64,000 nt of DNA. It comes from an alpha proteobacterium IMCC14465 (lineage in GTDB: Bacteria; Pseudomonadota; Alphaproteobacteria; RS24). The DNA is taken from NCBI GenBank assembly GCA_000293845.2, contig ALYF01000003.1, positions 1-64,000 of the forward strand. The letters run 5' to 3'. A program made the translations under genes and the position numbers. Each line of letters opens with the position of its first letter. Positions within the stretch are counted from its first letter, which is position 1. Below, one piece after another: positions 37,849-54,361 of the stretch. Below the pieces are notes generated by a model that searched no databases, was not told the origin of the DNA, and saw nothing but the letters and a program-made list of their open reading frames with translations.

Positions 37849-38721
37849 TTAAAACCCTCCCTCTAACGGTAACGCCCACCCATCAGGGCGCGCTTCAAAA
37901 CCGGAGAAACGCAAAACATTCAAAATGGCATCATCGTTCTGGCTTGATACAGGCAAGCGGACGATAATGTCCGCCTTTAAGCGCATCGCGTCCAGCGTGC
38001 CAGCTATACGAATATTGTCAATCTTTGTCGTCTGAGACGTGCCAGCCGCTAAATCAGCAGTCAGGTCTAAACGCATCACCCCATCTGCACACGCGGCTTT
38101 TCCGTTCCATAACAGGCTGGCGGGGAGCAAACTGCCCATAACGGCATTGTCTGTTGACACGGTGAGCAGCGCCGACCCGTCATAACATGCGCCAGTTTTG
38201 TCCAAATTCAATTTACGCCCATCAAAAGTGACAGTGACCGGCATTTGAATAGTCTCGGCATTGATGCCAGTAGACTGAAAATATGTGCTGAATTTTCCAT
38301 CCAGACGGTGAAAGGCAACCCTGTCCGACCCGGCATGTTTGATCGACCCGTTAAAAACACCGCCCGCCCCTGACAAAGAAAATTCGCCACCAAGGCGACC
38401 AATTAATAAAGGCAAAGCTGCCAGCTCGAATCGTCCTGATGACCATTGACGACCCGCATAGACAAACTTTTCAAGCCGAATATCCCACAGACTGCCGGAT
38501 ATACTCTGCGCATAAAGACCTTGTGGTTGAAACATGCGCAACCCAAGCGACGCCGGTAATTGGAGTATCAAGCTGACCAGAAAAACAACACCAAATAGTT
38601 TAGCTAGGCTAGCAGAGCTAAAAGACACTTCAGACATGCGACGCATCAGAGGTTCAAGGCGCGCTCTTATGACCGAAAGATGCGTTAAATAAGCCAAAGC
38701 ACGTCTCATTATATCTTTCAT
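37849..38721 (-). CDS. gspN: Type II secretion system protein N
   Basis: A 290-aa bitopic inner-membrane protein with one N-terminal membrane segment (residues ~38-60) and a large periplasmic domain. The segment GLYAQSISGSLWDIRLEKF is typical of GspN. It is an accessory inner-membrane component found in many but not all type II systems. It begins 19 nt after gspM and is tightly coupled to the following lipoprotein gene. Confidence 0.85.
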   Translation of the reverse strand: MKDIMRRALAYLTHLSVIRARLEPLMRRMSEVSFSSASLAKLFGVVFLVSLILQLPASLGLRMFQPQGLYAQSISGSLWDIRLEKFVYAGRQWSSGRFELAALPLLIGRLGGEFSLSGAGGVFNGSIKHAGSDRVAFHRLDGKFSTYFQSTGINAETIQMPVTVTFDGRKLNLDKTGACYDGSALLTVSTDNAVMGSLLPASLLWNGKAACADGVMRLDLTADLAAGTSQTTKIDNIRIAGTLDAMRLKADIIVRLPVSSQNDDAILNVLRFSGFEARPDGWALPLEGGF

Positions 38722-38740: not shown

Positions 38741-39250
38741 TTATTCTCGGCCAAAAACAGCACTCACATTCAGGCTTTTTTCATTCATATTTTTCTGAAT
38801 CAAAACCTCATCTGCTTGCAGTCCTTGTTCGGATTGAAGCGCGGACAGCCATCGCATAAGCGAGGCGCTACTGGTCTTATTGATACGCACGGTCACACTG
38901 CCATCATCACCGGGCTGAATCATACTCAGCCCGATATTGACGCGTTTGGCAGTTTCCGTAAGTGCTGCCCTTAACGGCTTATCACCCTGTGAAACGACAT
39001 CAGATTGATTTCCGGCACGCGAGAGAAGCCCGGTAATACGTTCAAAACGGGCTTGTTCAGTTGCAAGCGACATACGATTTTTTTCGAGACTCATATCCAG
39101 TGGTCGTAACAAACCAACATAAAGCAAGAAGAGAGCAATAGCTGAGCCTGCGACTAAGAAAGCAATTTGCTCGCGCAAGGTCACAGATTGCCAGAAGCCA
39201 ACAAAATTAGCCTCCATATGGCTCAATATATTTTTTAGCGTTTCCATCAT
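38741..39250 (-). CDS. gspM: Type II secretion system protein M
   Basis: A 169-aa bitopic protein with one membrane segment (residues ~30-50, IAFLVAGSAIALFLLYVGL) and a small periplasmic ferredoxin-like domain. It pairs with GspL in the inner-membrane platform that recruits the GspE ATPase. The start overlaps the gspL stop by 4 nt (ATGA). Confidence 0.88.
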   Translation of the reverse strand: MMETLKNILSHMEANFVGFWQSVTLREQIAFLVAGSAIALFLLYVGLLRPLDMSLEKNRMSLATEQARFERITGLLSRAGNQSDVVSQGDKPLRAALTETAKRVNIGLSMIQPGDDGSVTVRINKTSSASLMRWLSALQSEQGLQADEVLIQKNMNEKSLNVSAVFGRE

Positions 39251-40302
39251 TGACCAATCCCCGCTGTACGGGACAGAGAGAAATCTCCGGTCACGCCATT
39301 CTCGACCTGGCTGCTTTTTCCCTCACTAACAGCAAAACCTGCATCGACAAGTTTTTGTCTGGCGCGTTCCAGTGCTGAAAAATTTTGCGCCCGAAGCGTC
39401 ACCTGTAACGGGCGTATATCCGTCCGATCAAAAGTCAATCTGTCTATTCCGATATTTTCAACATCCTCGACCGCTTGAAAAAGCGTATCCGTTAGATATA
39501 AAAAATTTCGTGCCGGCAAAGCATTGGACGACATCATTTTATTCATAAGTTGGGCTTCGACATTCACGACACGGGTGACATCAGGGAAAGCCTGCTTGAA
39601 CAACTGTATCGAAGCTTCTTCATAATCAGCGCGTGCGGCCTGATATTGACCAATTTGTGCAAATGAACCAATGACCCAAATTAACAAGACTGTTGCCGCC
39701 AAAATCGCAGGCCGTTTGAGAACAGGCAGGTAACTCATAAATGGAAATTGAGCGCCATATATACCGGTCGCCATCCCCTGCCCATCTTCTGGCGGCGGGC
39801 CGCGCAAACCATCCCTACGGGCATCCTTTGTCACATCCGACAAAGCTGCTTCGGCGAGTTTCTCCGGCATACGGAAACCCGTTCCGTCTGCACGACGGCA
39901 TAAGATATCGCCATCTTCGTGCAGAATAGCAACCCCCTCATCAGGCGGGGCAATCAGCATATAGTCAGGCCATGCCGCCTTCAGGGATAAATCCTCCGCC
40001 AGTGCCGCATCCTGCATCTCACGCATGACAGTTTCGGCACAAGCCAGCAAAAGATAATCATTGGGTGTTTCCGTCTCAACCAAACAAAGATGCATATCCT
40101 CAATATCTGTAACCATGAGGTCAGAGACCAGATAGGGGAGCGTCTTACGCAATTTTGCTGCAGACAATGCAGGCAAGGTCACACGAAAACAGCTCACCAT
40201 ATCACCAGCTATGACCGCCACGGCATTACCGCCCAAATTACCACCTAAATTACCACTGAGATTTTCAGCTGTTTTTATAAATTCAAATTGTGCGCGGGCC
40301 AT
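39247..40302 (-). CDS. gspL: Type II secretion system protein L
   Basis: A 351-aa bitopic protein. An N-terminal cytoplasmic actin-like domain (LPYLVSDLMVTDIEDMHLCLVE) binds GspE, a membrane segment lies near residues 195-213, and a periplasmic domain contacts GspM. A tandem 12-bp repeat gives NLGGNLGGN near the start. It is shorter than many GspL proteins (~400 aa), mainly in the cytoplasmic part. Confidence 0.87.
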   Translation of the reverse strand: MARAQFEFIKTAENLSGNLGGNLGGNAVAVIAGDMVSCFRVTLPALSAAKLRKTLPYLVSDLMVTDIEDMHLCLVETETPNDYLLLACAETVMREMQDAALAEDLSLKAAWPDYMLIAPPDEGVAILHEDGDILCRRADGTGFRMPEKLAEAALSDVTKDARRDGLRGPPPEDGQGMATGIYGAQFPFMSYLPVLKRPAILAATVLLIWVIGSFAQIGQYQAARADYEEASIQLFKQAFPDVTRVVNVEAQLMNKMMSSNALPARNFLYLTDTLFQAVEDVENIGIDRLTFDRTDIRPLQVTLRAQNFSALERARQKLVDAGFAVSEGKSSQVENGVTGDFSLSRTAGIGQ

Positions 40303-40337: not shown

Positions 40338-41366
40338 TTATGCACCGAAATAGCGAGAAATAATAATATATGAGCCATCGGGATTAAAGTGTAGCTCTGA
40401 ATTCAATCGAGTACGCGCTGTGTTCAGTCGTACATCCACAGTCAGAAGAAAACGTCTCGGCGTGGTGATAAATTGCCCCCGCACTGCCTCCGGTATCGCC
40501 TTACCCTCAAATATTTTCATTTGCCAGAACCGACGATTATGGTCATAGCCACCCCGCGGGCGTGACGCTATTAATTGCGACGCCTGTTGCATTGTGACCG
40601 CATCACCAAGCAATGCCTTAACCAGCACCGAGTGATGTGGTTGAAGCGTATTAAGATTAAGCACAGTTTGGGTATCCAGCGGATCAATGCAAACCAAGGG
40701 GGTCAAAGCATCAATGAGATCAACTGAGAAGTCGCGAATTAAACGCAAGTCCTTGATACTCACCAATCGGCTGTCGGATGCACGATAAGGCGGGTCAAGA
40801 CGATTATAGGCAGCACTTTCAGCCCCCATAGGCAGCGGTCGTGTATCACTATCCTGCCAGTCCGTTAGCGCAGCCGTCAAAGATGCAGCCTCTGTCGTGC
40901 CAATGCCCATAGCTTGTAACAGGTTAGAAAATTGCTGCATGGCCATCACATTGGCCGCATATGACCCATCCGGCAATTTACTCACCAATGTCGACAGATT
41001 GAAGCAATTTGTATGTTCCTTTAACGCACCTTTTATGCGTCCGCCATCTATCGGCATGTCAACTTTCAACCCGTTATCGGCGTCATTAATGGCATCACTA
41101 ACGCCAAATAATTCACTTGCTTTAATGACGGCACCGGCACGCTTTGCACCGAGGATTTCTCCCGCCAGCGCATATTCACGCGCTTGCGACACGATTTGAC
41201 TATTAGTGGTTTTACGAACAAACATGCCAAACATATCAAAGGCCACAACTGCCGTCACACTCATGACAGACACCAGACCCAATACAATAATCAGAGCCGC
41301 ACCCGTTTGCCTGCTTTGCTGCAATAATTCTGAACCAATAAAAAATTGTTTATCTCTGACTTCCAT
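40338..41366 (-). CDS. gspK: Type II secretion system minor pseudopilin K
   Basis: A 342-aa minor pseudopilin. The prepilin site is TGAALIIVLGLVSV; like other GspK proteins it lacks Glu at +5. A large C-terminal periplasmic domain with DWQDSDTRPLPMGAE, the GspK alpha-domain signature, follows. It caps the pseudopilus tip with GspI and GspJ. The start shares a base with the end of gspJ. Confidence 0.92.
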   Translation of the reverse strand: MEVRDKQFFIGSELLQQSRQTGAALIIVLGLVSVMSVTAVVAFDMFGMFVRKTTNSQIVSQAREYALAGEILGAKRAGAVIKASELFGVSDAINDADNGLKVDMPIDGGRIKGALKEHTNCFNLSTLVSKLPDGSYAANVMAMQQFSNLLQAMGIGTTEAASLTAALTDWQDSDTRPLPMGAESAAYNRLDPPYRASDSRLVSIKDLRLIRDFSVDLIDALTPLVCIDPLDTQTVLNLNTLQPHHSVLVKALLGDAVTMQQASQLIASRPRGGYDHNRRFWQMKIFEGKAIPEAVRGQFITTPRRFLLTVDVRLNTARTRLNSELHFNPDGSYIIISRYFGA

Positions 41367-42043
41367 TATACGCCGCCAGAACTGCTGCCGAAATACCGGC
41401 CGGTTCGAAAATAATGCACATAGTCCCGTGACACCCCATCATCTGTTACCGTCCAACTCACTTCCACGAGACTGGGCAAATCATCCGCGCTGATGCCGCT
41501 CACCCCTTCGGGGTTAAACGCACTCATATCCGTTTGCGCATAAGCACTGGGCGTGGCAATTCTCCATTCGCGCACCCAAGCATTATTGACAAGAAACCTA
41601 ATTTCCACCGTCTCTATATTATCTATGAGATTGTAGCGGCGCTGGGGCGTATCGCGCACCGCATCAGGGCGGTCATAAGCCTGACGCGTCAAGGTACCAT
41701 CTTCTAAACAATAGCGAACGGACTCGATATCTGTTCCGCGTGGGTCATATATCGCTACCGGACCGGCACGGCGGGTCAGGCGCAAAAAACAAGAGGTGCG
41801 CATATCACCGTAAAAGATAACCGGCATTTCAGCCGCACCGGAAGGGCGCATCACCGCATGGAGCAAATCATCAGCAAGCTGTTCACGCGCTGACATCATT
41901 TCTGATAGTCGCGTGCTTGCCGACCCAATCGCCGCTGATCCCCGAAAATAACCATTCAGCATGACAAGAGCCGTCATTGACACAAGTGATAACAGAAACA
42001 TGGCTAAAAGCGTTTCAACGAGACTGAAGCCTTTTTCCGACAT
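41366..42043 (-). CDS. gspJ: Type II secretion system minor pseudopilin J
   Basis: A 225-aa minor pseudopilin with a short leader ending in KG, followed by FSLVETLLAMFLLS (Glu at +5) as the membrane helix. A beta-rich globular domain follows. It forms the pseudopilus tip complex with GspI and GspK. It overlaps both neighbours by one base, so expression is coupled. Confidence 0.92.
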   Translation of the reverse strand: MSEKGFSLVETLLAMFLLSLVSMTALVMLNGYFRGSAAIGSASTRLSEMMSAREQLADDLLHAVMRPSGAAEMPVIFYGDMRTSCFLRLTRRAGPVAIYDPRGTDIESVRYCLEDGTLTRQAYDRPDAVRDTPQRRYNLIDNIETVEIRFLVNNAWVREWRIATPSAYAQTDMSAFNPEGVSGISADDLPSLVEVSWTVTDDGVSRDYVHYFRTGRYFGSSSGGV

Positions 42044-42420
42044 TATTGCCCTGCCTCTTTAAAACCCGTTAAATGCGCCAGCTTTATCGCGCTTTCAGGT
42101 CTGGACACCGAGACCGACATCATGAGAGGACCACCATCTGTGGTTTGGGAAATATCAGCGCGCCATAAAAACACGGCACCACCCTGCCGCTGTTCGCCAG
42201 ACAAAACACCCGTGCTGACGTCGGACTTAACCGAAAGTAAGGCCACCGTATTTTCTGCCACGGTATGTGCCAATACTTTTTCCTGCACATGCGATGCCAT
42301 GCGCACACTTTGACTTTGATTAATAAGTATCGGGATGGCCGCAAGAGCCAGAATGGACACGGCGACCAGCAATTCGAGCAGAGAAAAGCCCTGCGCGGAT
42401 GTCGGGGAGCCGGTCATCAT
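42043..42420 (-). CDS. gspI: Type II secretion system minor pseudopilin I
   Basis: A 125-aa minor pseudopilin. The leader ends QG, followed by FSLLELLVAVSILALA with Glu at +5. The C-terminal domain is the small GspI type. It starts 2 nt after gspG; gspH, usually found between G and I, is absent. Confidence 0.92.
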   Translation of the reverse strand: MMTGSPTSAQGFSLLELLVAVSILALAAIPILINQSQSVRMASHVQEKVLAHTVAENTVALLSVKSDVSTGVLSGEQRQGGAVFLWRADISQTTDGGPLMMSVSVSRPESAIKLAHLTGFKEAGQ

Positions 42421-42422
42421 AA

Positions 42423-42872
42423 TTACTCGTCCAGCCAGTTGCCGATATCTGCGTCCAATCCGCTGCCGCCCAGTCGTCCGTCGGCACCAAGAGAGAAGAC
42501 GTCATAAGGTCCGAATTCTCCAGGCACAAGGTATTGATAGGGATTATTCCAAGGGTCTTTAGGGAGAGATTTGACAAACCCTTCCTGACGAAATGTGTCA
42601 CCGGCTGGCGCGCGGGTCAGCGCATCCAAACCACCTTCCATAGCGGGATATCGCAAGGTCTCCATCCGATACATTTCAATCGCCTGCGATAGCAGAGCCA
42701 CATCACTACGGGCTTTTTCCACCATGGCGCGGTTTTGACTCGGCAGCACATTCAACACCACAACAGAAGTCAAAAGCCCCATAATCACAACAGCAACCAT
42801 GAGTTCGATAAAGGAAAAACCATTGGCCTCAGGCATTTTAGACGGCAGTTGCATATGGCTATTTATGGTCAT
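42423..42872 (-). CDS. gspG: Type II secretion system major pseudopilin G
   Basis: A 149-aa major pseudopilin. The prepilin peptidase site is NGFSFIELMVAVVIMGLL (Glu at +5). The C-terminal domain holds the calcium-site residues in LGADGRLGG and DADIGNW, and KDPWNNPYQYLVPG is a GspG hallmark. It polymerises into the piston-like pseudopilus. It begins 12 nt after gspF. The leader is long (~18 residues), and internal Met codons at residues 6 or 13 could be used. Confidence 0.95.
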   Translation of the reverse strand: MTINSHMQLPSKMPEANGFSFIELMVAVVIMGLLTSVVVLNVLPSQNRAMVEKARSDVALLSQAIEMYRMETLRYPAMEGGLDALTRAPAGDTFRQEGFVKSLPKDPWNNPYQYLVPGEFGPYDVFSLGADGRLGGSGLDADIGNWLDE

Positions 42873-42884
42873 TTTTTTCTTCCC

Positions 42885-44150
42885 CTAAGATAAAACAAGA
42901 CTGTTAAGACTCATAATAGGCAACATAATGGACATGACAATCACGCCGACCATAAGGCCCATAATCACGACAATAGCCGGTTCAAGAAGGTTCATCAGAG
43001 TGCGCGTAACCCCGTCAAATTCGCCTTCAAGATAATCGGCTGTCTTTGTCAGCATATGCGGTAATGAACCGCTTTTTTCACCCATCGCCACCATATAAAC
43101 CAGCAAGGGGACGAAAATACCGCTTTTACGGAATGCAGCGGCAAGTGCGCCGCCTTCACGAACATCTTTATAAATCCCATCAACAGCGTCGCGCACCACT
43201 TGGTTGGATTGTGTTTCACGCGCCGCCAATATTGCTTCTGGAACAGGGCTTCCTCCCTCTACGAGCGTCCCCAATGTGCGGGCAAATCGAGCACTCGCAA
43301 CCACACGCAATAATCTACCGACCAGAGGAAGGCGAAGCCAGAAGCCATGCACTTTGAGGCGAAGCGGCATACGGCGTAAGGCGGCTGAATAACCGATAGC
43401 TGCCGCGACAATAATCAACAAAAAAGCCGGACCAAAGCGCGTCAGAATATCTGATAAACCGATAACAAAACGCGTCAAAGCCGGAAGCTCTGCATTGAAG
43501 GATTCGAATTGCACGGCAATCTTAGGCACGACAAATGTCATTAAAAGGACGAGAACACCGCTAGCGATAACACTCAGAGCCGCCGGATAAACCATAGCCG
43601 CCTGAACCTTACTTTTCACATCTTCAGATTTGTCGCAATATTCAGAAATCCGTTCCAAAATCCCGCCTAAATCGCCTGACGCTTCACCGGCAGCAATCAT
43701 CGCCCTGTATAAATCATCAAAGGATGCGGCTTCTACTTTCATCGCTTCTGAAAGTTTCTCACCTTCGACAACACGACTGCGAATATTGGTCAATACATCC
43801 CGTATTAATGGTTTCTCACTTTGCGCGGCAATAGCCTGCAAGGTTTCGTCAACGGGTAAACCTGCCCCAATCATGGTTGCCATTTGACGTGTCACCATAG
43901 CCAAATCGCGCGAGGATATTTTTTCACGGCGCGTTGAGAAGAAACCCAGTGACGGTAAGGATAGACGCGCCATAGATGACGTCGTTACTGAACCATTTGA
44001 AGCTTGAGCACGACCACCTTCTGTTAAGCTGACTGGAAATAATGTTTTCGATTGCAGACGTTTTTTTGCATCACGCAAACTATCAGCAGCAATAACGCCT
44101 TTTTGCTTTTTTCCTTGCGCATCTAGCGCCTCATATTGATAGGCAGGCAT
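42885..44150 (-). CDS. gspF: Type II secretion system inner-membrane protein F
   Basis: A 421-aa polytopic protein with two homologous halves and three membrane helices. It opens PAYQYEALDAQGKKQKGVI, and the domain contains QMATMIGAGLPVDETL and LVEGGSPVPEAI. It forms the platform around which the pseudopilus assembles. Its start codon shares a base with the gspE stop. Confidence 0.95.
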   Translation of the reverse strand: MPAYQYEALDAQGKKQKGVIAADSLRDAKKRLQSKTLFPVSLTEGGRAQASNGSVTTSSMARLSLPSLGFFSTRREKISSRDLAMVTRQMATMIGAGLPVDETLQAIAAQSEKPLIRDVLTNIRSRVVEGEKLSEAMKVEAASFDDLYRAMIAAGEASGDLGGILERISEYCDKSEDVKSKVQAAMVYPAALSVIASGVLVLLMTFVVPKIAVQFESFNAELPALTRFVIGLSDILTRFGPAFLLIIVAAAIGYSAALRRMPLRLKVHGFWLRLPLVGRLLRVVASARFARTLGTLVEGGSPVPEAILAARETQSNQVVRDAVDGIYKDVREGGALAAAFRKSGIFVPLLVYMVAMGEKSGSLPHMLTKTADYLEGEFDGVTRTLMNLLEPAIVVIMGLMVGVIVMSIMLPIMSLNSLVLS

Positions 44151-45670
44151 TATACCGGCTCCTTGAGCCGAGAGACTCGTAGAACTTCCTCAAGCGTGGT
44201 GTCACCCGACAGGACCAAATCGCGCCCACTATCTGCAAGAACCGGCAAACCGTCTGCAATAGCGCGCGCCTCAATATCTAATTCCCCGGCGCCATCCTGT
44301 ATCATGCGACGAATATCGTCATTCACCATAATCAGCTCATATATTCCAATTCGGCCGCGATAACCTGTATTCTGACACTCAGAACAGCCCGTCGGTTGAT
44401 ATAATTCAAGCTGTTGGCTTTTCAGGCCCAGCTTTGCCGCTGTATCTTTAGACGCCTGATATGGTTGCTTACACGATGCACAAAGTTGCCGGACCAATCG
44501 TTGAGCCAGCACGGCTTTGACAGAAGATGCCAGTAAAAACGGCTCTACGCCCATATCTACCAACCGTGTCATAGCCGCAGCTGCGCTATTGGTGTGAACG
44601 GTCGACAAGACCAAATGCCCTGTCAAACTCGCTTGAACGGCAATTTCGGCAGTTTCGGCATCTCGTATTTCCCCGACCATCACCACGTCCGGATCTTGGC
44701 GAAGAATAGACCGCAAACCACTTGAAAAGGTCATGCCAACTTTATTGTTCACCTGAGTCTGACTGACCCCCTTTAGGGCATATTCAATCGGATCTTCAAC
44801 GGTCATAATATTGCGTGACTGATCGTTCAAAAGTCCCAAAGCAGCATAGAGCGTTGTGGTTTTACCCGCACCTGTCGGGCCCGTTACCAACAAAATACCG
44901 TTTGGTTCAGATAAGGCGCTCTCAAAACGTGTACGTATCGTCTCCACCATGCCGAGATCGCCGAGGCTTAAAAATGCCTGATCCTTATCAAGCAGACGCA
45001 TGACCACGCGCTCACCATATCGGATTGGTAATGTGGAAACCCTTACATCATAGCTTTTACCGCCAAGTGTCAGAGATAAGCGCCCGTCTTGCGGCAGACG
45101 TTTTTCGGCAATATCAAGCCGCGCCATCACTTTTACGCGGGACACCAAATAGGGCGCTAACTTAGCTGATAAAGCTGCAATTTCAGCCAAAAGCCCATCT
45201 ACTCGCAATCGGACGGCGACTTTGTCCTCAAAGGGTTCAAGATGAATATCCGACGCCCCGGCGCGAACGGCTTCGCTGAATAAGCTGTTGAGAAGCCGGA
45301 TAACCGGCGCGTCATCATCCCCTGCAAGTAAATCAGCGGATTGTTCAACACCCTGCAAAACACTGTCGAGATCATCGCCATTGGTTTCAGATAAACTATC
45401 AACCTCAGCATCAATTCCGCGGCTGGCATACATGGTTGACAGCAGACTTTCAAAATCTTCATCAGAAAGTGTCTTGACCATATGAACATCACCACATGCC
45501 CGAAACACTTCGGCAATCATGGATCTGTCAGCAGCTTGCGACAGGTTCAGACACAGACCTTTTTTTTCTGGCGATAGCGCCAAGCCATAATCGCGCGCAA
45601 ATGCATACGGCAACATATCAGAGAAACTATGTGCGTCTAAAGTTGGCGAATTGGGGGTTAATTGGACCAT
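44150..45670 (-). CDS. gspE: Type II secretion ATPase E
   Basis: A 506-aa secretion ATPase. Walker A is GPTGAGKTTT, the Asp and His boxes include LRQDPDVVMVGEIRD and TGHLVLSTVHTN, and four zinc-binding cysteines lie in CASC and CSEC near residues 414-452. It powers pseudopilus growth. It is coupled to gspF and lies 8 nt after gspD. Confidence 0.96.
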   Translation of the reverse strand: MVQLTPNSPTLDAHSFSDMLPYAFARDYGLALSPEKKGLCLNLSQAADRSMIAEVFRACGDVHMVKTLSDEDFESLLSTMYASRGIDAEVDSLSETNGDDLDSVLQGVEQSADLLAGDDDAPVIRLLNSLFSEAVRAGASDIHLEPFEDKVAVRLRVDGLLAEIAALSAKLAPYLVSRVKVMARLDIAEKRLPQDGRLSLTLGGKSYDVRVSTLPIRYGERVVMRLLDKDQAFLSLGDLGMVETIRTRFESALSEPNGILLVTGPTGAGKTTTLYAALGLLNDQSRNIMTVEDPIEYALKGVSQTQVNNKVGMTFSSGLRSILRQDPDVVMVGEIRDAETAEIAVQASLTGHLVLSTVHTNSAAAAMTRLVDMGVEPFLLASSVKAVLAQRLVRQLCASCKQPYQASKDTAAKLGLKSQQLELYQPTGCSECQNTGYRGRIGIYELIMVNDDIRRMIQDGAGELDIEARAIADGLPVLADSGRDLVLSGDTTLEEVLRVSRLKEPV

Positions 45671-45678
45671 TTGGAGCG

Positions 45679-47610
45679 TTACTCCTGTTCCGACGGAACG
45701 CCCATGACATCTTGCATCATGTCATCCAGTGAAAGTTTGGTTTTCGCCTTTTTCTGACTGTCAGAAATATAGCCATATTTAAGTTCTGTCACCGCACGAG
45801 CATCTTCGGTTGTCCTGACAATTGTAGGCCGCAGAAATACCATTAAGTTGGTTTTGGATTTTGATTTTTGTTCTGAACTGAAAGCTTTTCCAAGAACAGG
45901 AATACTACCGAGCAGGGGTATTTTATCAACGGATATGCTCTCATCCTGCTGGATTAATCCACCAAGGACAATGATTTCGCCATCACCGACCCGAACCGTG
46001 GTTTCCATTTCTCTTTTATTGGTAATCAACTCAGAAGAATTTGCTGTAATCGGGCCAGAGACAGAGGATACTTCTTGTCTTATTTTAAGACGGATTTCAT
46101 CCCCTTCATTAATTTGAGGAACAACCTCCAACTGTACGCCGACATTTTTGCGGTCAATCGTACGGAATGGGTTGGCATTGGACGAACCCAGCGCCTCGCC
46201 TGTGGTGATAGGTATTTCTTGACCGACAATGAATTTAGCCGGCTCATTATCCAAGGTCATAATTGACGGTGTGGAGAGGATATTGCTTTTCACATCACCG
46301 GATAATGCATTCAGAATAACCCCAAAAATGCCGCCATCACTTCGCGTCCCCGCGGCACCGACCGCCAGCCCGTTAATGCCGAGCATGCTATCAATAGCGG
46401 CAGAACGCAGAAAGCCCGACAGATTATCTGCGGTATCAGAGCTGCTGCTGTCTGACGAATTATCCAGCACCAATGCCCCAGTCGCGGCCAGAATGTTTGG
46501 TGAGGAATTGCTGTAATTAGCAACTGTAAAAGGCACTTTACTGTCTTTGCCCCCGGCAAGAACATATTGCACACCTAGCGACTTGGCCGCATTGTTGGAA
46601 ACTTCAACAATAATGGCTTCGACAAGAACCTGTGCACGCGGGACGTCGAGGGCATAAATCAAATCAATCAGCTTCTTCTGAGCGTCTGCACTTGCCTTAA
46701 TGATGATGGCATTGGCTTCCACATAGCTTGAAATAATAATTTTCTCCGGAGAAAATTTATTAACCCCTGCATCAGGAGCTGCTATGCTATCCGAAAGAGC
46801 TTGCAAGGTCGGCAAAAGCGTTTCGGAATTAGCATATTTCAGCTTCACCACTTTCAGCGAACCATTGGAGGCATTTTCAACATCTAGCTTTTCAATGACC
46901 GGGAAATAACGTGCCACAGCCTGCGGTTGGCCTTTCAAAATCAAAGAGTTGCTGGCGATGATGGGTATCGCTTTAATCGGTTCATAGCTTGCGTTTTTAC
47001 TCGAATTCTCACTGGCTATTTGACGGGCAACATCCGCCATTTCACGGGCAGATGTGTTTTTCAACTTAACGATTTTAACAACGGAATTATCAACATCAAT
47101 CTCGGCAATAATTGACTGAATGCGCGTCAGATTATGCGCATAATCCGAGACTACAATGGCTTGCAATCCCTCGCGCGCGAAACTCAATCCCTTGGGGTTC
47201 ACATATTGTTGCACAACACCCAAAACCTTTACCGGATCGGCATAACGAAGGAAAAAGACTTTAGTGGCGATACGGTCGCCCTTCGCATCCTCCTCCACGC
47301 TATCTTTGAAAGCGACATCGACAGGGATGATTTTATACCCGCCATCAATGGTGGATGTCGCGGCATAGCCGTTGACTTTCAGCACTGAAAGAAAAATCTC
47401 AAAAAGTAATTCGGCATCAATATTCTTACTTGAAACAAGATTTACCTTGCCGGTGACACCTGGGTCGATAATGAATGTTTTCCGCGTGGCGAGGGCGACA
47501 TCTTCAATGAATTCTCGTAAATCCGCATCCTTGTAATTCAGCCCCCCTGAAATTTGTGCATGAGCATTAAACGACATCAGGGTAAACAACAGAACGACTA
47601 AGATTTTCAT
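45679..47610 (-). CDS. gspD: Type II secretion secretin D
   Basis: A ~643-aa outer-membrane secretin with a signal peptide ending FNAHA. The N0 domain (NYKDADLREFIEDVALATRKTF) and N1-N3 repeats with KVVKLKYANSETLLPTLQALSD precede the C-terminal secretin region (QIPITTGEAL, LRPTIVRTTEDA). It forms the outer-membrane channel. I chose ATG 47610; ATG 47634 would only lengthen the signal peptide. The upstream 0.2 kb holds a Pho-box-like array, so this gene may begin its own transcript. Confidence 0.95.
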   Translation of the reverse strand: MKILVVLLFTLMSFNAHAQISGGLNYKDADLREFIEDVALATRKTFIIDPGVTGKVNLVSSKNIDAELLFEIFLSVLKVNGYAATSTIDGGYKIIPVDVAFKDSVEEDAKGDRIATKVFFLRYADPVKVLGVVQQYVNPKGLSFAREGLQAIVVSDYAHNLTRIQSIIAEIDVDNSVVKIVKLKNTSAREMADVARQIASENSSKNASYEPIKAIPIIASNSLILKGQPQAVARYFPVIEKLDVENASNGSLKVVKLKYANSETLLPTLQALSDSIAAPDAGVNKFSPEKIIISSYVEANAIIIKASADAQKKLIDLIYALDVPRAQVLVEAIIVEVSNNAAKSLGVQYVLAGGKDSKVPFTVANYSNSSPNILAATGALVLDNSSDSSSSDTADNLSGFLRSAAIDSMLGINGLAVGAAGTRSDGGIFGVILNALSGDVKSNILSTPSIMTLDNEPAKFIVGQEIPITTGEALGSSNANPFRTIDRKNVGVQLEVVPQINEGDEIRLKIRQEVSSVSGPITANSSELITNKREMETTVRVGDGEIIVLGGLIQQDESISVDKIPLLGSIPVLGKAFSSEQKSKSKTNLMVFLRPTIVRTTEDARAVTELKYGYISDSQKKAKTKLSLDDMMQDVMGVPSEQE

Positions 47611-47730
47611 GAAAGCCACATCCTTTTTAGTCATTGTATTTTTTTTGAAATAAACCGGCGACAAATGACCATCATTAATTATTGGGGGCTAAATCTAAGG
47701 AGAAATGCCAAATATGAGTAGAATGTTTCT

Positions 47731-47763
47731 ATGTGACAGTAATGTGACGCGGATGTGACAGAT
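47731..47763 (-). promoter_or_regulatory. Pho-box-like array of three 11-bp direct repeats upstream of gspD
   Basis: On the minus strand the repeats read CTGTCAC, GCGTCAC and CTGTCAC, each followed by four bases, at 11-bp spacing. PhoB boxes are 11-bp direct repeats of CTGTCA(T/C) plus an AT-rich spacer. A weak -10-like TACTCAT lies at 47720-47714. The array points toward gspD, whose ATG is ~120 bp downstream. Confidence 0.72.
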
Positions 47764-47807: not shown

Positions 47808-48638
47808 TTAACGCGTCGCAGTGGCCGTTAAAGGAACGGTAAATGTTAAACTTTGTTTATTCCCATTTCGTTCAATCATCATATCAATTTGCTGACCAAA
47901 ACGGAGCTTTTCCAGCGCCTCGGAGAGGTTTTCATAATTGTGAACACGCTCACCATTGATTTCCATAATGACATCATCAGGCATAAAGGCTGTGCCGGAA
48001 AGCATGGCTGCATATTCAGCTTGAAGAATAAAACCCACCATTGCGCCATTCTCATTTTTAACAGGCTTAAAATAGCTGGTCGTCAAAAAGGGGGGGTGTG
48101 TCTCATCTGTTTTAACAAGTGTTTCATTTTGTTGAGGCGCGGGCGTCGTATCTAGGAAACCACGCAAACGTGAACTGACCTTGCCGAATGAAACAGTTTC
48201 AAAACTACCATTATTATTGATTTCAATTCGGTCATTATAAACGGCTAGTAATTTAATCTTATCGGCCATCTGTTCACCGACACGCACATTTTGCTGTTCC
48301 TGACCTCCGATTTTGTAAATAACACTTCCCATGCCATTACCGTCTGAACGCAGACCAAATAATTTAATATCCAACGTGGACTCGGCGGCACGCACCGTGA
48401 CAGTTGTATCTTCTGCGACGGTTAATTCGGGGAAGAACATATTTTTAAAATCATAGGATTGGGAAAACTGCTGTATGCCCGAAGAAACAGGTTTTTGATA
48501 AGCCGAAATCTTGAGGCTGCCCTTGTCGTCCAGAAACGTCGCAACATAATGGGCAAAAAGAAGCGCCGCCGAAGCTACAAGGACAAGTTCTAGCGCATTA
48601 ACGATAAACTTTGTCGGCGTTGCTTCGGCGGCGGTCAT
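47808..48638 (-). CDS. gspC: Type II secretion system protein C
   Basis: A 276-aa bitopic protein with one N-terminal membrane segment (residues ~14-34), a periplasmic homology region (DIKLFGLRSDGNGMGSVIYKIGG) and a C-terminal PDZ-like domain (FMPDDVIMEINGERVHNYENL). It links the inner platform to the secretin and helps select substrates. It begins 25 nt after the TonB-dependent receptor gene and is probably co-transcribed with it. Confidence 0.92.
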   Translation of the reverse strand: MTAAEATPTKFIVNALELVLVASAALLFAHYVATFLDDKGSLKISAYQKPVSSGIQQFSQSYDFKNMFFPELTVAEDTTVTVRAAESTLDIKLFGLRSDGNGMGSVIYKIGGQEQQNVRVGEQMADKIKLLAVYNDRIEINNNGSFETVSFGKVSSRLRGFLDTTPAPQQNETLVKTDETHPPFLTTSYFKPVKNENGAMVGFILQAEYAAMLSGTAFMPDDVIMEINGERVHNYENLSEALEKLRFGQQIDMMIERNGNKQSLTFTVPLTATATR

Positions 48639-48663: not shown

Positions 48664-51201
48664 TCAGAATGAGTAATTCAGACCGATAGAAAGTGTGGTG
48701 CCAATATCATAGGCTTCGGCAATCTCTGAACCTTGAAGCCTCTCAGCGCCTTCGTCCAGCAGATTCTTCAGCTTTACAGACAGACCTACAGGGCGGTCAT
48801 AGGCTGTATAGATATCACGGCTATAAACCACATTAAGCTCGAAAGGTGGCTTCTCGATAAGGTCAGGACGTGAGTTTGTACCTAAACGATAAATCCGTTC
48901 ATCAACATAGTTAAGCACGATGTTGAAGAACTCATTAGATTCAAGGTTCTCAAATCCGAACTGTACATTAGCAAGGATTTCGGACTGACCTTGCATCGGC
49001 CCCACGAGATTTGTCACCTCACCGAAATTCGCAGCGCTTCGTATCACTTCTGAATCAATATATGTCGCGTTCGCTTTCACGAATAAATCACGATTCAAAC
49101 GTGTGCCGAGTTGCTTTTCTATCTCAATCTCAATACCTGTGAGCTCAGCTTCATCGGCATTTGCCACTGTATCAAGCTGACCTTCGCCACCGATTGACGC
49201 GATAGAATACTCAATTGGATTGGTAATATCTTTATAAAACACACCAACTGTCAACGAATCACTATCACCGAAATACCACTCATAACGCGCATCGTAGTTC
49301 TTGATTTCAGCGAATTGCAAATTGGGGTTACCCTCTTCCGTCCGGCCGTCTTCACGAATGAAACGGGCTGGTGACAATTCACGACTATCCGGGCGGTTAA
49401 TGGTTTCCGAATAACCGAAACGCAATTGCATATTTTCTGCAAATTCCCAAGTCACAGTTGCTGATGGGAGGAATGACTCAATTTGTTGCGTAACAAGAAG
49501 CGGCGTTAATGTTGACCGGTCGGTCGCACGCACCAGCTGCTCACTATCTTCGTAACGATAGCCGGATGAAACGCGGATGGTATCTGTCAAACGTGTGTCG
49601 ATTTGCCAATAAGCCTGTGCGTTCTCGAAGTCAGCAGAGAAATTGTCAGCGGCACGCGTCAGCGATTGCAGATAAATACCGTTTGGATCAATGTTGGTCG
49701 ACCCAAAGATAACTTCTGGTACACGGAACAATAAATCACGGTTCGTAACCTGACCCATATTATAGTGATATGTCAGATAGTAACTTGAGCGCTCTTTCTC
49801 ATTGTAAGCCGCACCGACTTTAATATCGGTTTCAAAGCCGAAAATATCGGCGACTTGTGTAAGATTAACAACTAAGTCACGTGACTCGTCCTCCATATAA
49901 CCATATTCAGTCAGATTGCCGTCTGTCCGCGTACTGATGCGGAAGGCACCCGGTCCATCATCGTAGAAATATTTATAACGACGACGCAAAGGAACATCAC
50001 GGGTCGCATTGGTAATATTATATGACCAGTCAAGCATCGTCTCGCCAGCATCAATGAGATCAAATGTATGCTCACCGGAAACGGCATTAGAAATAACTTC
50101 ACGTTCTTTCCAATCCAGACGGGTTGTATTTTCAAGATCGTTGGAGTCAGTAGAACCACCTTTGATCTGAACCTGTTTCTGACTCGATCTTAGCAGCACG
50201 CCTGTATATTTAATTTCATTATTGGAGTCGATTTCCCAACCAACTGACAGCAAACCATTGAGATTTGTGTTCCATGAGGTGGTGTTAAAACCGCAATATT
50301 GCGTGCTAACACTTTGATTTTCACAGACGCTATTGGAGAAATTCTGCTGAATCACCAGACCATCATTGGTAGCCGAGTATGAAAATTGCTCACCAAACTG
50401 GTTGCGATACTCACTTGAATAATCAAGGGCAAAAATCATACCGACGACACCATTAGCCGTATCACGACTGGTACCACCGGAAATTTTAGCCGACAAATCT
50501 GGCTTGTTTTCATCAAAGTCAATGGACCAGATGTTAGGAATAGCTTCACCATATTGCTCTAATGCGGCAGGCGTCAGGCTGGTAAGCTGATAATCATTTC
50601 TGAAGATGCTGGGCAATTCTCTGTGACCATCATCCATTGTCAACCAATCACGGTCACTCCCATAATAGGAAAGGCCATCCTTAGTGGTTGACTCGCTATT
50701 ATATCCTGTACTCAGGCTTATGTTTAAGAATGGCTCATCAGGAACGCTTTTCGTCCGTAGATCAATGACACCGCCACCGAAAGCACCGGGATATTCAGCC
50801 GAATAAGTTTTCTGAACAAGCACATTACCAATAATACTCGTCGGAAAAATATCAAGCGGCACGGCCGTTTTCAAAGGATCCGGCGATGGCAATTGCGTGC
50901 CATTTAAAAGTGTGGATGTGTATCTTTCCGTCAACCCTCTAACGACGACATATTTACCTGTCGTATCAGGTGAAAGACCCGGAAGGCGTGTCAGAGCCAC
51001 GGCTATATCGGTATCTCCAGCGAGTGAAAAGTCCTCAGCTTCAAGAACATTGGAAATCTCGGAGGTATTACGTTTTTCATCGGGAATAAAAACCCCAATG
51101 ACCTGAACTTCGTCAATTTCTTGAGCATTGGCTAGGGCTGGAAACGAAGCCAGCAAAGCTATTGCGGCTAAGCTGGAATTAAACTGTTTATAATATGTCA
51201 T
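48664..51201 (-). CDS. TonB-dependent outer-membrane receptor
   Basis: An 845-aa receptor with a signal peptide ending PALANAQ and a TonB-box-like stretch EIDEVQVIG. The plug domain has DIAVALTRLPGLSP and VVVRGLTERY, and the barrel ends LSIGLNYSF. The branch with a PGLSPDTTGKYVVVRGL plug is the type common in Caulobacterales-like bacteria for carbohydrate or phosphate-rich polymer uptake. The ATG at 51201 has CAGG upstream; the open frame begins at a TTG at 51210. It lies between the large lipoprotein and gspC. Substrate unknown. Confidence 0.93.
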   Translation of the reverse strand: MTYYKQFNSSLAAIALLASFPALANAQEIDEVQVIGVFIPDEKRNTSEISNVLEAEDFSLAGDTDIAVALTRLPGLSPDTTGKYVVVRGLTERYTSTLLNGTQLPSPDPLKTAVPLDIFPTSIIGNVLVQKTYSAEYPGAFGGGVIDLRTKSVPDEPFLNISLSTGYNSESTTKDGLSYYGSDRDWLTMDDGHRELPSIFRNDYQLTSLTPAALEQYGEAIPNIWSIDFDENKPDLSAKISGGTSRDTANGVVGMIFALDYSSEYRNQFGEQFSYSATNDGLVIQQNFSNSVCENQSVSTQYCGFNTTSWNTNLNGLLSVGWEIDSNNEIKYTGVLLRSSQKQVQIKGGSTDSNDLENTTRLDWKEREVISNAVSGEHTFDLIDAGETMLDWSYNITNATRDVPLRRRYKYFYDDGPGAFRISTRTDGNLTEYGYMEDESRDLVVNLTQVADIFGFETDIKVGAAYNEKERSSYYLTYHYNMGQVTNRDLLFRVPEVIFGSTNIDPNGIYLQSLTRAADNFSADFENAQAYWQIDTRLTDTIRVSSGYRYEDSEQLVRATDRSTLTPLLVTQQIESFLPSATVTWEFAENMQLRFGYSETINRPDSRELSPARFIREDGRTEEGNPNLQFAEIKNYDARYEWYFGDSDSLTVGVFYKDITNPIEYSIASIGGEGQLDTVANADEAELTGIEIEIEKQLGTRLNRDLFVKANATYIDSEVIRSAANFGEVTNLVGPMQGQSEILANVQFGFENLESNEFFNIVLNYVDERIYRLGTNSRPDLIEKPPFELNVVYSRDIYTAYDRPVGLSVKLKNLLDEGAERLQGSEIAEAYDIGTTLSIGLNYSF

Positions 51202-51244
51202 TTTTGGCAACCTGATTTTGAAGGCATAAACCGAAGAGTGAGTT

Positions 51245-51271
51245 GGCCGCCGCAGCTAGGCTGCGACGGCC
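51245..51271 (-). promoter_or_regulatory. 12-bp hairpin between the lipoprotein and receptor genes
   Basis: On the transcript strand, a 12-bp stem (one G-U pair) closes a 3-nt loop, in the space between the lipoprotein stop and the TonB receptor start. No U-tract follows, so it is not a classic terminator. It could be an attenuator or an mRNA stability element that lets the lipoprotein be made in excess over the downstream genes. Confidence 0.7.
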
Positions 51272-51285
51272 AGTATCCTTAAGGA

Positions 51286-54153
51286 CTAGTCGTTCAACCA
51301 GACCGTCCAACCGGACGTCCAGTTGTCGGAACTCTGTACGGCTCCAACAAAGCCAGCATCTTCGAAGAAGGCGCCGAGAGCTGTTGGGTCGGTATCCGCA
51401 ATACCGTTTTCAACAGCACCGTTAATGTAGCGCTTCTGACCCGTTGTCGCACCGCTGAGAGTGGTCAAAGAGTTTGAAGTTGTGCTGTCATTATTGCCAT
51501 CTTCAGCTGCAAACCATGTCGGGAGGTCAAAGCCAGCCGCTGTATCATTTTCACCGGCGTTTGTATCATCTCCAAAGGCCGTATCTGTATCAATGAATAC
51601 GGATTTCAGATTAATACCGGTTGTTCCACTGTCACGATTTGCATAAGTTGCCGCACCGTCAATGTCGATACCGTCCTGAAAACCTACTACGACAGTGTTG
51701 TAGATATTGGCGCCCGTACCTTCACGGAGCAGGATACCGATATCGGACTCTGCACCGGTCGCGGCTGGGAAGGAACCGACAAGCGTTAGATTTGACAAGG
51801 ATGGGTAGGCACGAGGCAGGGCGTCATTATTGGACGAGTTGCTGTCCGCTTCAATACCCTGGTCAGTATTACCTTGGTTGGCACCGTTCTGAACAACGAT
51901 TGCATATTGGATGTTACCAACATAACCATTCGTCCAATCGATGCTGTCATCATCCGCACCGGTGACAACAAGGTGCTTGGCATTAACTGTACCGCCAAAG
52001 AACTCGATACCGTCATCGGCGCCGTTATGGACCTGGACGTAATCAACTTCTGTACCGGAACCGACACCCTCAAAGGCGATACCGTTCAGCTCGTTATCTG
52101 CCGTAAAGGCAAAACCGGCATATTTGACGACTGTGTAGTAAATTTGACCACTGTCATCGGCAGCATCGTTACCACCATATTTACCACTATCGCCTTCACC
52201 GTCGCGCTCACAAAGGTTTGTGAGAACTTCACAATTGGTACCCTTGTTGATTGGCGCACGACCGTTAATAACCAGTCCACCCCAAAGACCCGTATCCGAG
52301 TCAAGGTTTCTGGATTCATCATCCTCAACTGTAAAGGTTACAGGTGCGGATGCTGTACCGTTGGAGTTCAACTTGGAACCACGTGCGATAACCAGATAGG
52401 AGAGTGGGTTTTCGCGCGCATAAACGGAGACACCTGGGTCAATCGTCAGCTCTGCCTTGTCACAAGTTGAAAGCTCGTTATCTTTGTCAGGACCGCAATC
52501 GGCACCAATAACAACCTTGCCACGCAAGAAGTAGCTAAGACCAGAAACGAGGTTCATGTCATCTGTGATAACGCCTGTAAGCTCACAACCAGTTGTACCG
52601 ATAGCTGTTGTCCCGGTTGGGCAAGCTGGCGTCGGGTTGATGCCATATGTCCAGTTAAGCGTCCAGTTATCTGTGGCTGAAGAACTTTTCACCGCACCGA
52701 TATAGGTCGCGAATTCAAACCATGTCAGCGTCTCTTCAGTGTTAACATTGACAGAAGTTACAGAATTCTCGTTATTACCGTTGATGAAACCATTAGACAA
52801 TGTGCTTGCCTGTTCAACATTATTGGCACCTGCGGCGAATTTAGCAGCGAGACCTGTGCCCGCAGCTGTATCATCTTCACCTGCATCCGTGTCAGCTTTG
52901 AAGGAAGCATCACAATCAAACAGAACTGATTTCAGTGTAACACCGGTAGCCGTTGTGCTGTTTGTGTATGTTGCAGTTCCGTCAATATCCCAGCAATGTT
53001 CAAAATTGGAGACAACTGAGTTATAGATGCCAGCACCTGTACCCTCGCGGAGCAAGATACCGATATCAGATTCTGCAGGACGTGCACCAACAAGGGTCAC
53101 ATTTGACAAAACAGGACGCGCACGTGGCAAGGCATCATTGTCGGAAGAGTTACTGTCGGCCTCAATACCTTGGTCTGTGTTGGCCTGATTGGCGTTTTGC
53201 ATAACGATGGCATATTGGATGTAACCGCGATAGCCGTTCGTCCAATCGATGCTGTCATCATCAGCGCCTGTTACAACGATATATTTTGCGTTAGCTGTAC
53301 CGCCAAAGAATTCAATACCGTCATCCGCGCCATTATGGACATGGACATATTCAATGGTTGTGCCGGAACCGACACCCTGGAAGGCAATACCATTCAACTC
53401 ATTGTCAGCGGTAAAGGCATAACCGGCGTAACGTACCTGCATGTATTTGAAGGTACCGGAATTATCCGTATCGTCATTACCACCATAAAGGCCACTATCG
53501 CCCTCGCCTTCACGTTCGCAAACATTGGCGGCAAGCTCACAGTCAGTACCTTTGTTAATGGTAGCTAGACCATTGACAACAAGACCGCCCCATTCACCAG
53601 TTTCAGTTTCGTTGAGTGCAATTGGGGATGTACGACCACGCAGGTGATCCTGCTCGGATGTAAAGACGATTGGTTGCGTTGCAGTACCGGTAGCTTCCAA
53701 ACGGGAGCCACGCGTCACAACTAGGTAAGACGTTACACCGGAGGTCGGTGTCTCTTTACCAATGATTTTTGTACCGGCTGGAATAGTCAGAACAGCATTT
53801 GTGCCGCCTGTGCCGTCTTTGGCTTCGTTTTCACCGACAACAACTTTACCATCAAGCATATAAATGTTGGAGGCGCTAAGTGTCAGGTCGGCGTTAATTA
53901 CACCAGAAATAGAGCAAACCTCGTCACCATTACTGAGAGTGACCTGCGTTAATCCGGTTTCACAATTGGCTGTTGCGCCGCCTGAATTACCGGAACCTCC
54001 GGAACCGCCGGAGCTTGAGCCGCCTGCGCCAGGATTAGGGCCGACTGTGCCAAGAGAGGCCAGTTCGGTATTGCTGTCGCCATCACAAGCGGCGACTGTC
54101 AGACCGATTACGGCCGACATTAAAAATTTACGAAAATGAATGAAAGATGGCAT
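51286..54153 (-). CDS. Large duplicated surface lipoprotein, candidate type II secretion substrate
   Basis: A 955-aa lipoprotein. The signal peptide ends VAAC with Cys23 as the lipidation site and Asp24 at +2. A Gly/Ser linker (residues ~37-60) follows, then two homologous halves of ~450 residues rich in Asp/Asn/Gly. Each half has NGADDGIEFFGG, VVTGADDDSIDWTNGY, NTDQGIEADSNSS and SDIGILLREGTGA, likely parallel-beta-helix-type repeats. Asp at +2 also occurs in PulA, a lipoprotein exported by a type II system. GGAGGG precedes the ATG at 54153. I do not know its activity. It is the first gene of the region leading to gsp. Confidence 0.85.
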   Translation of the reverse strand: MPSFIHFRKFLMSAVIGLTVAACDGDSNTELASLGTVGPNPGAGGSSSGGSGGSGNSGGATANCETGLTQVTLSNGDEVCSISGVINADLTLSASNIYMLDGKVVVGENEAKDGTGGTNAVLTIPAGTKIIGKETPTSGVTSYLVVTRGSRLEATGTATQPIVFTSEQDHLRGRTSPIALNETETGEWGGLVVNGLATINKGTDCELAANVCEREGEGDSGLYGGNDDTDNSGTFKYMQVRYAGYAFTADNELNGIAFQGVGSGTTIEYVHVHNGADDGIEFFGGTANAKYIVVTGADDDSIDWTNGYRGYIQYAIVMQNANQANTDQGIEADSNSSDNDALPRARPVLSNVTLVGARPAESDIGILLREGTGAGIYNSVVSNFEHCWDIDGTATYTNSTTATGVTLKSVLFDCDASFKADTDAGEDDTAAGTGLAAKFAAGANNVEQASTLSNGFINGNNENSVTSVNVNTEETLTWFEFATYIGAVKSSSATDNWTLNWTYGINPTPACPTGTTAIGTTGCELTGVITDDMNLVSGLSYFLRGKVVIGADCGPDKDNELSTCDKAELTIDPGVSVYARENPLSYLVIARGSKLNSNGTASAPVTFTVEDDESRNLDSDTGLWGGLVINGRAPINKGTNCEVLTNLCERDGEGDSGKYGGNDAADDSGQIYYTVVKYAGFAFTADNELNGIAFEGVGSGTEVDYVQVHNGADDGIEFFGGTVNAKHLVVTGADDDSIDWTNGYVGNIQYAIVVQNGANQGNTDQGIEADSNSSNNDALPRAYPSLSNLTLVGSFPAATGAESDIGILLREGTGANIYNTVVVGFQDGIDIDGAATYANRDSGTTGINLKSVFIDTDTAFGDDTNAGENDTAAGFDLPTWFAAEDGNNDSTTSNSLTTLSGATTGQKRYINGAVENGIADTDPTALGAFFEDAGFVGAVQSSDNWTSGWTVWLND

Positions 54154-54361
54154 TTTGCCCTCCAGTGGAATGTTGTCTACCAATTAGTAGGCACAGATAA
54201 GCCTGCAAATATTACAGAAACTTTACTTACTTGTAACAATTTGAATTATTCAGTTAATAATTATTATAAAAATGCCAGAAATGTTCTGCTTGCAGGTAAA
54301 GCATTTTATAAGGGAAGATAGGTTCTATTAGGGATGCTAGATATTATAAATAAGGCGAACC

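Follow-up and report, generated by a model that had tools for sequence, protein, structure and literature searches.

The window, meaning the whole stretch of 64,000 nt that was analysed, carries on its minus strand a gene for an ElpS-family lipoprotein of 955 aa with two beta-helix domains (51286..54153). The CDS begins with ATG and has GGAGG just 5' of it. The lipoprotein signal peptide MPSFIHFRKFLMSAVIGLTVAA and the lipid cysteine Cys23 (54085..54153, minus strand) form a VAA|C lipobox, which is directly followed by Asp24. The acylatable cysteine is thus present, and its acylation is predicted from the sequence. Next come the mature N-terminal tail DGDSNTELASLG and a Gly/Ser linker (residues 24-63, 53965..54084), beta-helix domain 1 (residues 64-507, 52633..53964) and beta-helix domain 2 (residues 508-955, 51289..52632), all on the same strand. 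The two halves align at 55% identity (E 3e-155), and at the DNA level they form repeats that are 71-81% identical with a spacing of about 1.3 kb. When the second half was modelled by AlphaFold with 39 homologous sequences, a right-handed parallel beta-helix was predicted (pLDDT 90.8, pTM 0.93). In the congener G279 the gene is kept at 94% identity, including the Asp at position +2.

Downstream of the lipoprotein gene, and also on the minus strand, lies a gene for a CC0171-like TonB-dependent receptor (TBDR) with Plug and beta-barrel domains (48664..51210). After a gap of about 25 nt it is followed by a type II secretion system (T2SS) cluster running from gspC to gspN in the same direction. The secretin gene gspD (45679..47664) scored 495 bits with TIGR02517, whose cut-off is 351, and gspE (44150..45670), gspF (42885..44150), gspG (42423..42872), gspI (42043..42420), gspK (40338..41366) and gspL (39247..40302) were also over their cut-offs. 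Scores below the cut-off were obtained for gspC (47808..48638; curated cut-off) and gspJ (41366..42043), while gspM (38741..39250) and gspN (37849..38721) were assigned by position only, with no family match. There is no gspH between gspG and gspI (42420-42423), and PF12019 had no match genome-wide. In HKST-UBA120 (L066) and Kordiimonas sediminis (L068), gspI likewise stands directly behind gspG. One bona fide GspD is present in this genome of 1.92 Mb, which comprises 16 contigs at 99.75% completeness; a second secretin match (C3:564063) is found a few kb from the sole prepilin peptidase match (C3:560967). A preliminary description of this DNA had pointed to the lipobox VAAC with Asp right behind the cysteine, to the two homologous halves and to a gene leading into receptor and gsp genes, and it was right on each of these points.

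Pfam, NCBIfam and PDB sequence searches with the lipoprotein returned no family and only chance-level matches. The preliminary description had also mentioned an extracellular lipoprotein gene beside the gsp cluster of Caulobacter. Such a gene exists: in Caulobacter crescentus, ElpS (CC0170) is followed by the TBDR CC0171 and by gspC-N (PMC2996285). The gene order lipoprotein-TBDR-gspC-gspD of the window is that of Caulobacter cc0170-cc0184. As a stand-in for CC0170, the ElpS of a Caulobacteraceae genome (L138), which may be C. vibrioides itself, was chosen on N-terminal features and gene order. Its lipobox LAGC at 17-20 and its Asn38 fit the published CC0170, and its gene, at about 190 kb of a 4.14-Mb contig, lies in the same gene order as in the window. 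The two halves of the window protein are 36% (E 1.5e-63) and 34% (E 2.4e-57) identical to it. The assignment of the window gene as a two-domain ElpS homologue is well supported.

The homologue sample comprised 80 named homologues. By TBDR similarity and gene order, the nearest were those of HKST-UBA120 (L066), Kordiimonas (L068, L075 and L079) and Eilatimonas (L084), in all of which the TBDR and gsp genes stand in line. Alignment of ten ElpS domain sequences gave 55 invariant columns. In a single-domain tree the two halves of the window protein cluster with one another, a pattern shared by many other two-domain members. In Kordiimonas, and in the HKST-UBA120/K. sediminis pair, a first half instead clusters with other first halves and a second half with other second halves. 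The clustering of halves within lineages can be accounted for by repeated duplication or by intragenic conversion. A three-domain ElpS of 1283 aa was also observed in a gammaproteobacterial MAG (L069 8531-12382).

Production of Caulobacter ElpS is confined to phosphate starvation. The palmitoylated protein sits on the outside of the outer membrane and is released from there after cleavage before Asn38 (PMC2996285). This cleavage site corresponds to the matching linker boundary in the window protein. In a delta-gspC-N mutant, ElpS was still surface-located and accessible to proteinase K, and only its release was lost; protease inhibitors also blocked release, and the authors proposed a T2SS-secreted protease (PMC2996285). 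The protein showed no phosphatase activity of its own, although overexpressing it raised the phosphatase activity outside the cells; in the absence of the T2SS, overexpressed ElpS was toxic (PMC2996285). The T2SS was listed in the PhoB regulon by a later study (PMC11208175). ElpS has been described in one organism, in 2010.

Two triple Pho boxes were found at the locus, both on the minus strand. The first, CTGTCACATCCGCGTCACATTACTGTCAC (47733..47761), sits between gspC and gspD, ahead of gspD, and is the one genomic site without a mismatch. The second (54211..54239), before elpS, is degenerate and reads TTGTTAC-4-AAGTAAA-4-CTGTAAT. In the congener the 11-bp-spaced units are preserved; its gspD box is CTGTCACATGATTGTCACAAAACTGTCAT and its elpS box resembles the pstS box. 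A triple-Pho-box pattern that allowed at most two mismatches, and that was drawn up with the gspD and elpS boxes already known, matched five sites genome-wide, and a reversed control pattern matched four. The count alone therefore proves nothing, and it is the placement that carries the case. Four sites precede gspD, elpS, pstS and a PhoD-like phosphatase operon, and the fifth overlaps coding sequence, that of a paralogous response regulator. The pstS box had earlier been seen as a two-unit box, and the phosphatase-operon box surfaced unprompted. This last operon (L107 1564-4721, G000:C8) encodes, besides the PhoD-like phosphatase, a 684-aa secreted protein for which no Pfam, NCBIfam or PDB relatives were found. 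A phoR-pstSCAB-phoU-phoB cluster, with phoB over its cut-off, lies on the contig of the window at a distance of about 50 kb. Since the best triple Pho box of the genome precedes gspD and weaker ones precede elpS and pstS, the elpS-gsp locus looks PhoB-controlled.

Across the homologues, the best two-unit Pho box in 73 promoters plus that of the window scored 10.4/14 on average, against 8.8 in shuffles, and elpS thus seems to be under Pho control in general. Taken alone, the window elpS box is weak, with p 0.65 for the two-unit score and p 0.16 for the profile, and the congener box gave p 0.004; the elpS promoter of the Caulobacteraceae stand-in has an imperfect Pho box only. Boxes before gspC or gspD were also considered as a general trait of T2SS-adjacent loci. 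This was rejected as weak outside the window's genus, with a mean of 9.7 against 8.9 and mostly no clear box. By their Pho boxes, the secretion genes of this genome are themselves linked to phosphate shortage. ElpS as a kind of protein was already known; what is new is the Pho boxes before gspD and elpS in this genome, together with the comparative locus evidence.

Directly 3' of the elpS stop there is an intercistronic stem-loop (51244..51272, minus strand) with a 13-bp stem and no clear U-run (z -4.4). At 79 loci the stem-loop behind the elpS stop had a mean z of -3.6, with 77% below -2, and that behind the TBDR stop (75 loci) was equal to it, with a mean z of -3.3. None was found behind the gspD, gspE and gspF stops. 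The stem-loops after elpS and after the TBDR gene occur at most homologous loci, in Alpha- and Gammaproteobacteria, and their sequences are unrelated. An intrinsic terminator with a U-run was tried for the elpS stem-loop and rejected. With a stem present and the U-runs inconsistent, a partial terminator or a 3' stabiliser is the better reading of the structure. By analogy, it would fit the independent regulation of elpS and the TBDR gene reported for Caulobacter (PMC2996285).

The neighbours of elpS were then compared among the homologous loci. A TBDR gene stands next to elpS in 75 of 76 loci, and the partnership with the receptor that had been proposed at the outset is strongly supported by this gene order. 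GspD adjoins elpS in 25 of the 66 loci with enough sequence. Among 387 genomes of the class, GspD over the cut-off was present in 8 of 11 with ElpS and in 43 of 376 without it (Fisher p 7e-6, uncorrected for phylogeny). Within the family to which the window belongs, ElpS and GspD occur together in the congener, and the sampled genera g2 and g3 gave neither ElpS nor GspD over the cut-off. Thirty-four ElpS genomes without adjacent gsp genes were searched: 23 had GspD elsewhere over the cut-off, two had a sub-cut-off or split GspD, and nine, several of them drafts, gave secretin matches only up to about 120 bits (two Asticcacaulis, Pelagerythrobacter, Phycosocius, Aurantiacibacter, two Erythrobacter, Erythrobacter UBA3075 and Novosphingobium Leaf2). 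An obligate partnership of ElpS with the T2SS is not supported by the counts of GspD adjacency and of genomes lacking a GspD match. The expected co-conservation of lipoprotein, TBDR and gsp genes thus held for the receptor and, as co-occurrence, within the class, and failed for gsp adjacency and for the genomes with no detectable GspD. The constant partner of ElpS is the TBDR rather than the T2SS, and the pairs without detectable GspD make the surface route testable free of a confounding secretion system.

The residue at +2 was readable with its lipobox in 73 homologues: Gly in 59, Ser in seven, Asp in four, and Phe, Pro and Glu in one each. Close relatives of the window protein have Ser or Gly. 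Asp at +2 is therefore ruled out as a conserved sorting signal, and the suggestion that it marks a T2SS cargo by Lol avoidance was not borne out. The tail behind the cysteine is conserved, as [I/V/L]x[S/V][P/L]G in 49 of the 73 and as GGD[I/L] in 22.

Taken together, these features make it probable that the window encodes a two-domain ElpS homologue that is induced by PhoB, displayed at the surface independently of the T2SS with the TBDR as its partner, and released in a T2SS-dependent manner. Under phosphate starvation, PhoB would activate elpS through the Pho box of that gene and everything from gspD onward through the strong triple box. ElpS would be acylated at Cys23, travel to the outside of the outer membrane along a T2SS-independent route, and be held there by the flexible Gly/Ser linker. 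The beta-helix domains and the adjacent TBDR may capture an organic phosphorus source or help its processing, while the T2SS would export hydrolases, including a protease able to cut the linker and so release ElpS. In the window genome the model is based on homology, gene order, predicted fold, Pho boxes, lipobox and TBDR linkage. Phosphate induction, T2SS-independent display and T2SS-dependent release are carried over by analogy from Caulobacter only, and we infer PhoB binding here, the ligand, physical contact with the TBDR and the releasing protease.

A serious alternative, to which somewhat less than an even chance is given, is that ElpS and the TBDR form a self-standing SusCD-like uptake module, and that the T2SS serves other phosphate-scavenging exoenzymes and shares only PhoB control with it. 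This overlaps the model above and differs in denying a functional link between T2SS and ElpS here. The near-constant TBDR adjacency against the less frequent GspD adjacency speaks for it, as do the gammaproteobacterial and Erythrobacteraceae loci without adjacent gsp genes, the separate Pho boxes of elpS and gspD, the stem-loop after elpS and the relatives in Flavobacterium phosphate utilisation clusters. However, deletion of the T2SS abolishes ElpS release in Caulobacter, so that in this organism the two are functionally linked. A broader picture can be put forward tentatively: ElpS and the TBDR may be a widespread proteobacterial uptake pair of phosphate starvation, with a sorting tail behind the lipid cysteine (xIASPG in Alpha-, GGDI in Gammaproteobacteria), a stem-loop that sets the lipoprotein:receptor ratio, and T2SS shedding as an option where adjacent gsp genes are PhoB-controlled.

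It is unlikely that ElpS is itself an enzyme, i.e. a polysaccharide lyase, an epimerase or a phosphoesterase-like beta-helix acting on a phosphorylated glycan. Such a role would agree with the acidic motifs DDGIE and DDxSxD, which are invariant in the alignment of ElpS domains and suggest a metal or ligand site, and with the predicted fold. In VIA-align the fold matched NosD, tailspikes, AlgE4, AlgG, PL6 lyases and polygalacturonases at Z 18-23, a statement on fold only. Foldseek, however, gave no match below E 1e-3 and only beta-helix fold-mates above it, for which reason no function is claimed from this search; the protein has no sequence relative in Pfam or PDB, and the Caulobacter protein lacks phosphatase activity. 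Least probable is the original proposal that the lipoprotein dodges the Lol pathway through Asp24 and crosses the outer membrane by the T2SS as a pullulanase-like cargo: Asp24 in the window protein and its congener, the adjacent gsp genes, the co-occurrence of ElpS and GspD in the class and the toxicity of overexpressed ElpS without the T2SS would agree with it, but in Caulobacter the T2SS is not needed for ElpS to get to the surface, few homologues have Asp at +2, some genomes have the ElpS-TBDR pair and no detectable GspD, and the +2 rule of E. coli is not known to apply in Alphaproteobacteria.

The preferred reading, a PhoB-induced surface lipoprotein released with the help of the T2SS, has its closest parallel in Caulobacter ElpS (PMC2996285). 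The two share the lipoprotein nature, the beta-helix domain in one or two copies, the conserved tail after the lipid cysteine (DIASPG / TELASLG), and a locus in which the TBDR comes next and gspC-N after it. The window protein has two domains in 955 aa and Asp at +2, whereas Caulobacter ElpS has one domain in about 520 aa and Gly at +2, so its sorting might differ from that in Caulobacter; the window locus also has the extra strong Pho box before gspD and is without gspH. For the Flavobacterium low-phosphate lipoproteins FI-FIII, the authors reported induction by phosphate starvation and, across half of the Caulobacter ElpS sequence, an identity of 31-36% (PMC8115612). They belong to phosphate utilisation clusters of Bacteroidota with SusC-like porins and are likened to the window protein by description only. 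Klebsiella pullulanase PulA, likened here by features rather than by sequence comparison, is also a lipoprotein with Asp at +2 encoded beside a T2SS; unlike ElpS, it is a T2SS-translocated starch enzyme. In SusCD-type pairs, as at the ElpS locus, a surface lipoprotein gene is fixed beside a TBDR gene; the lipoprotein has the SusD fold in those pairs and a beta-helix in ElpS.
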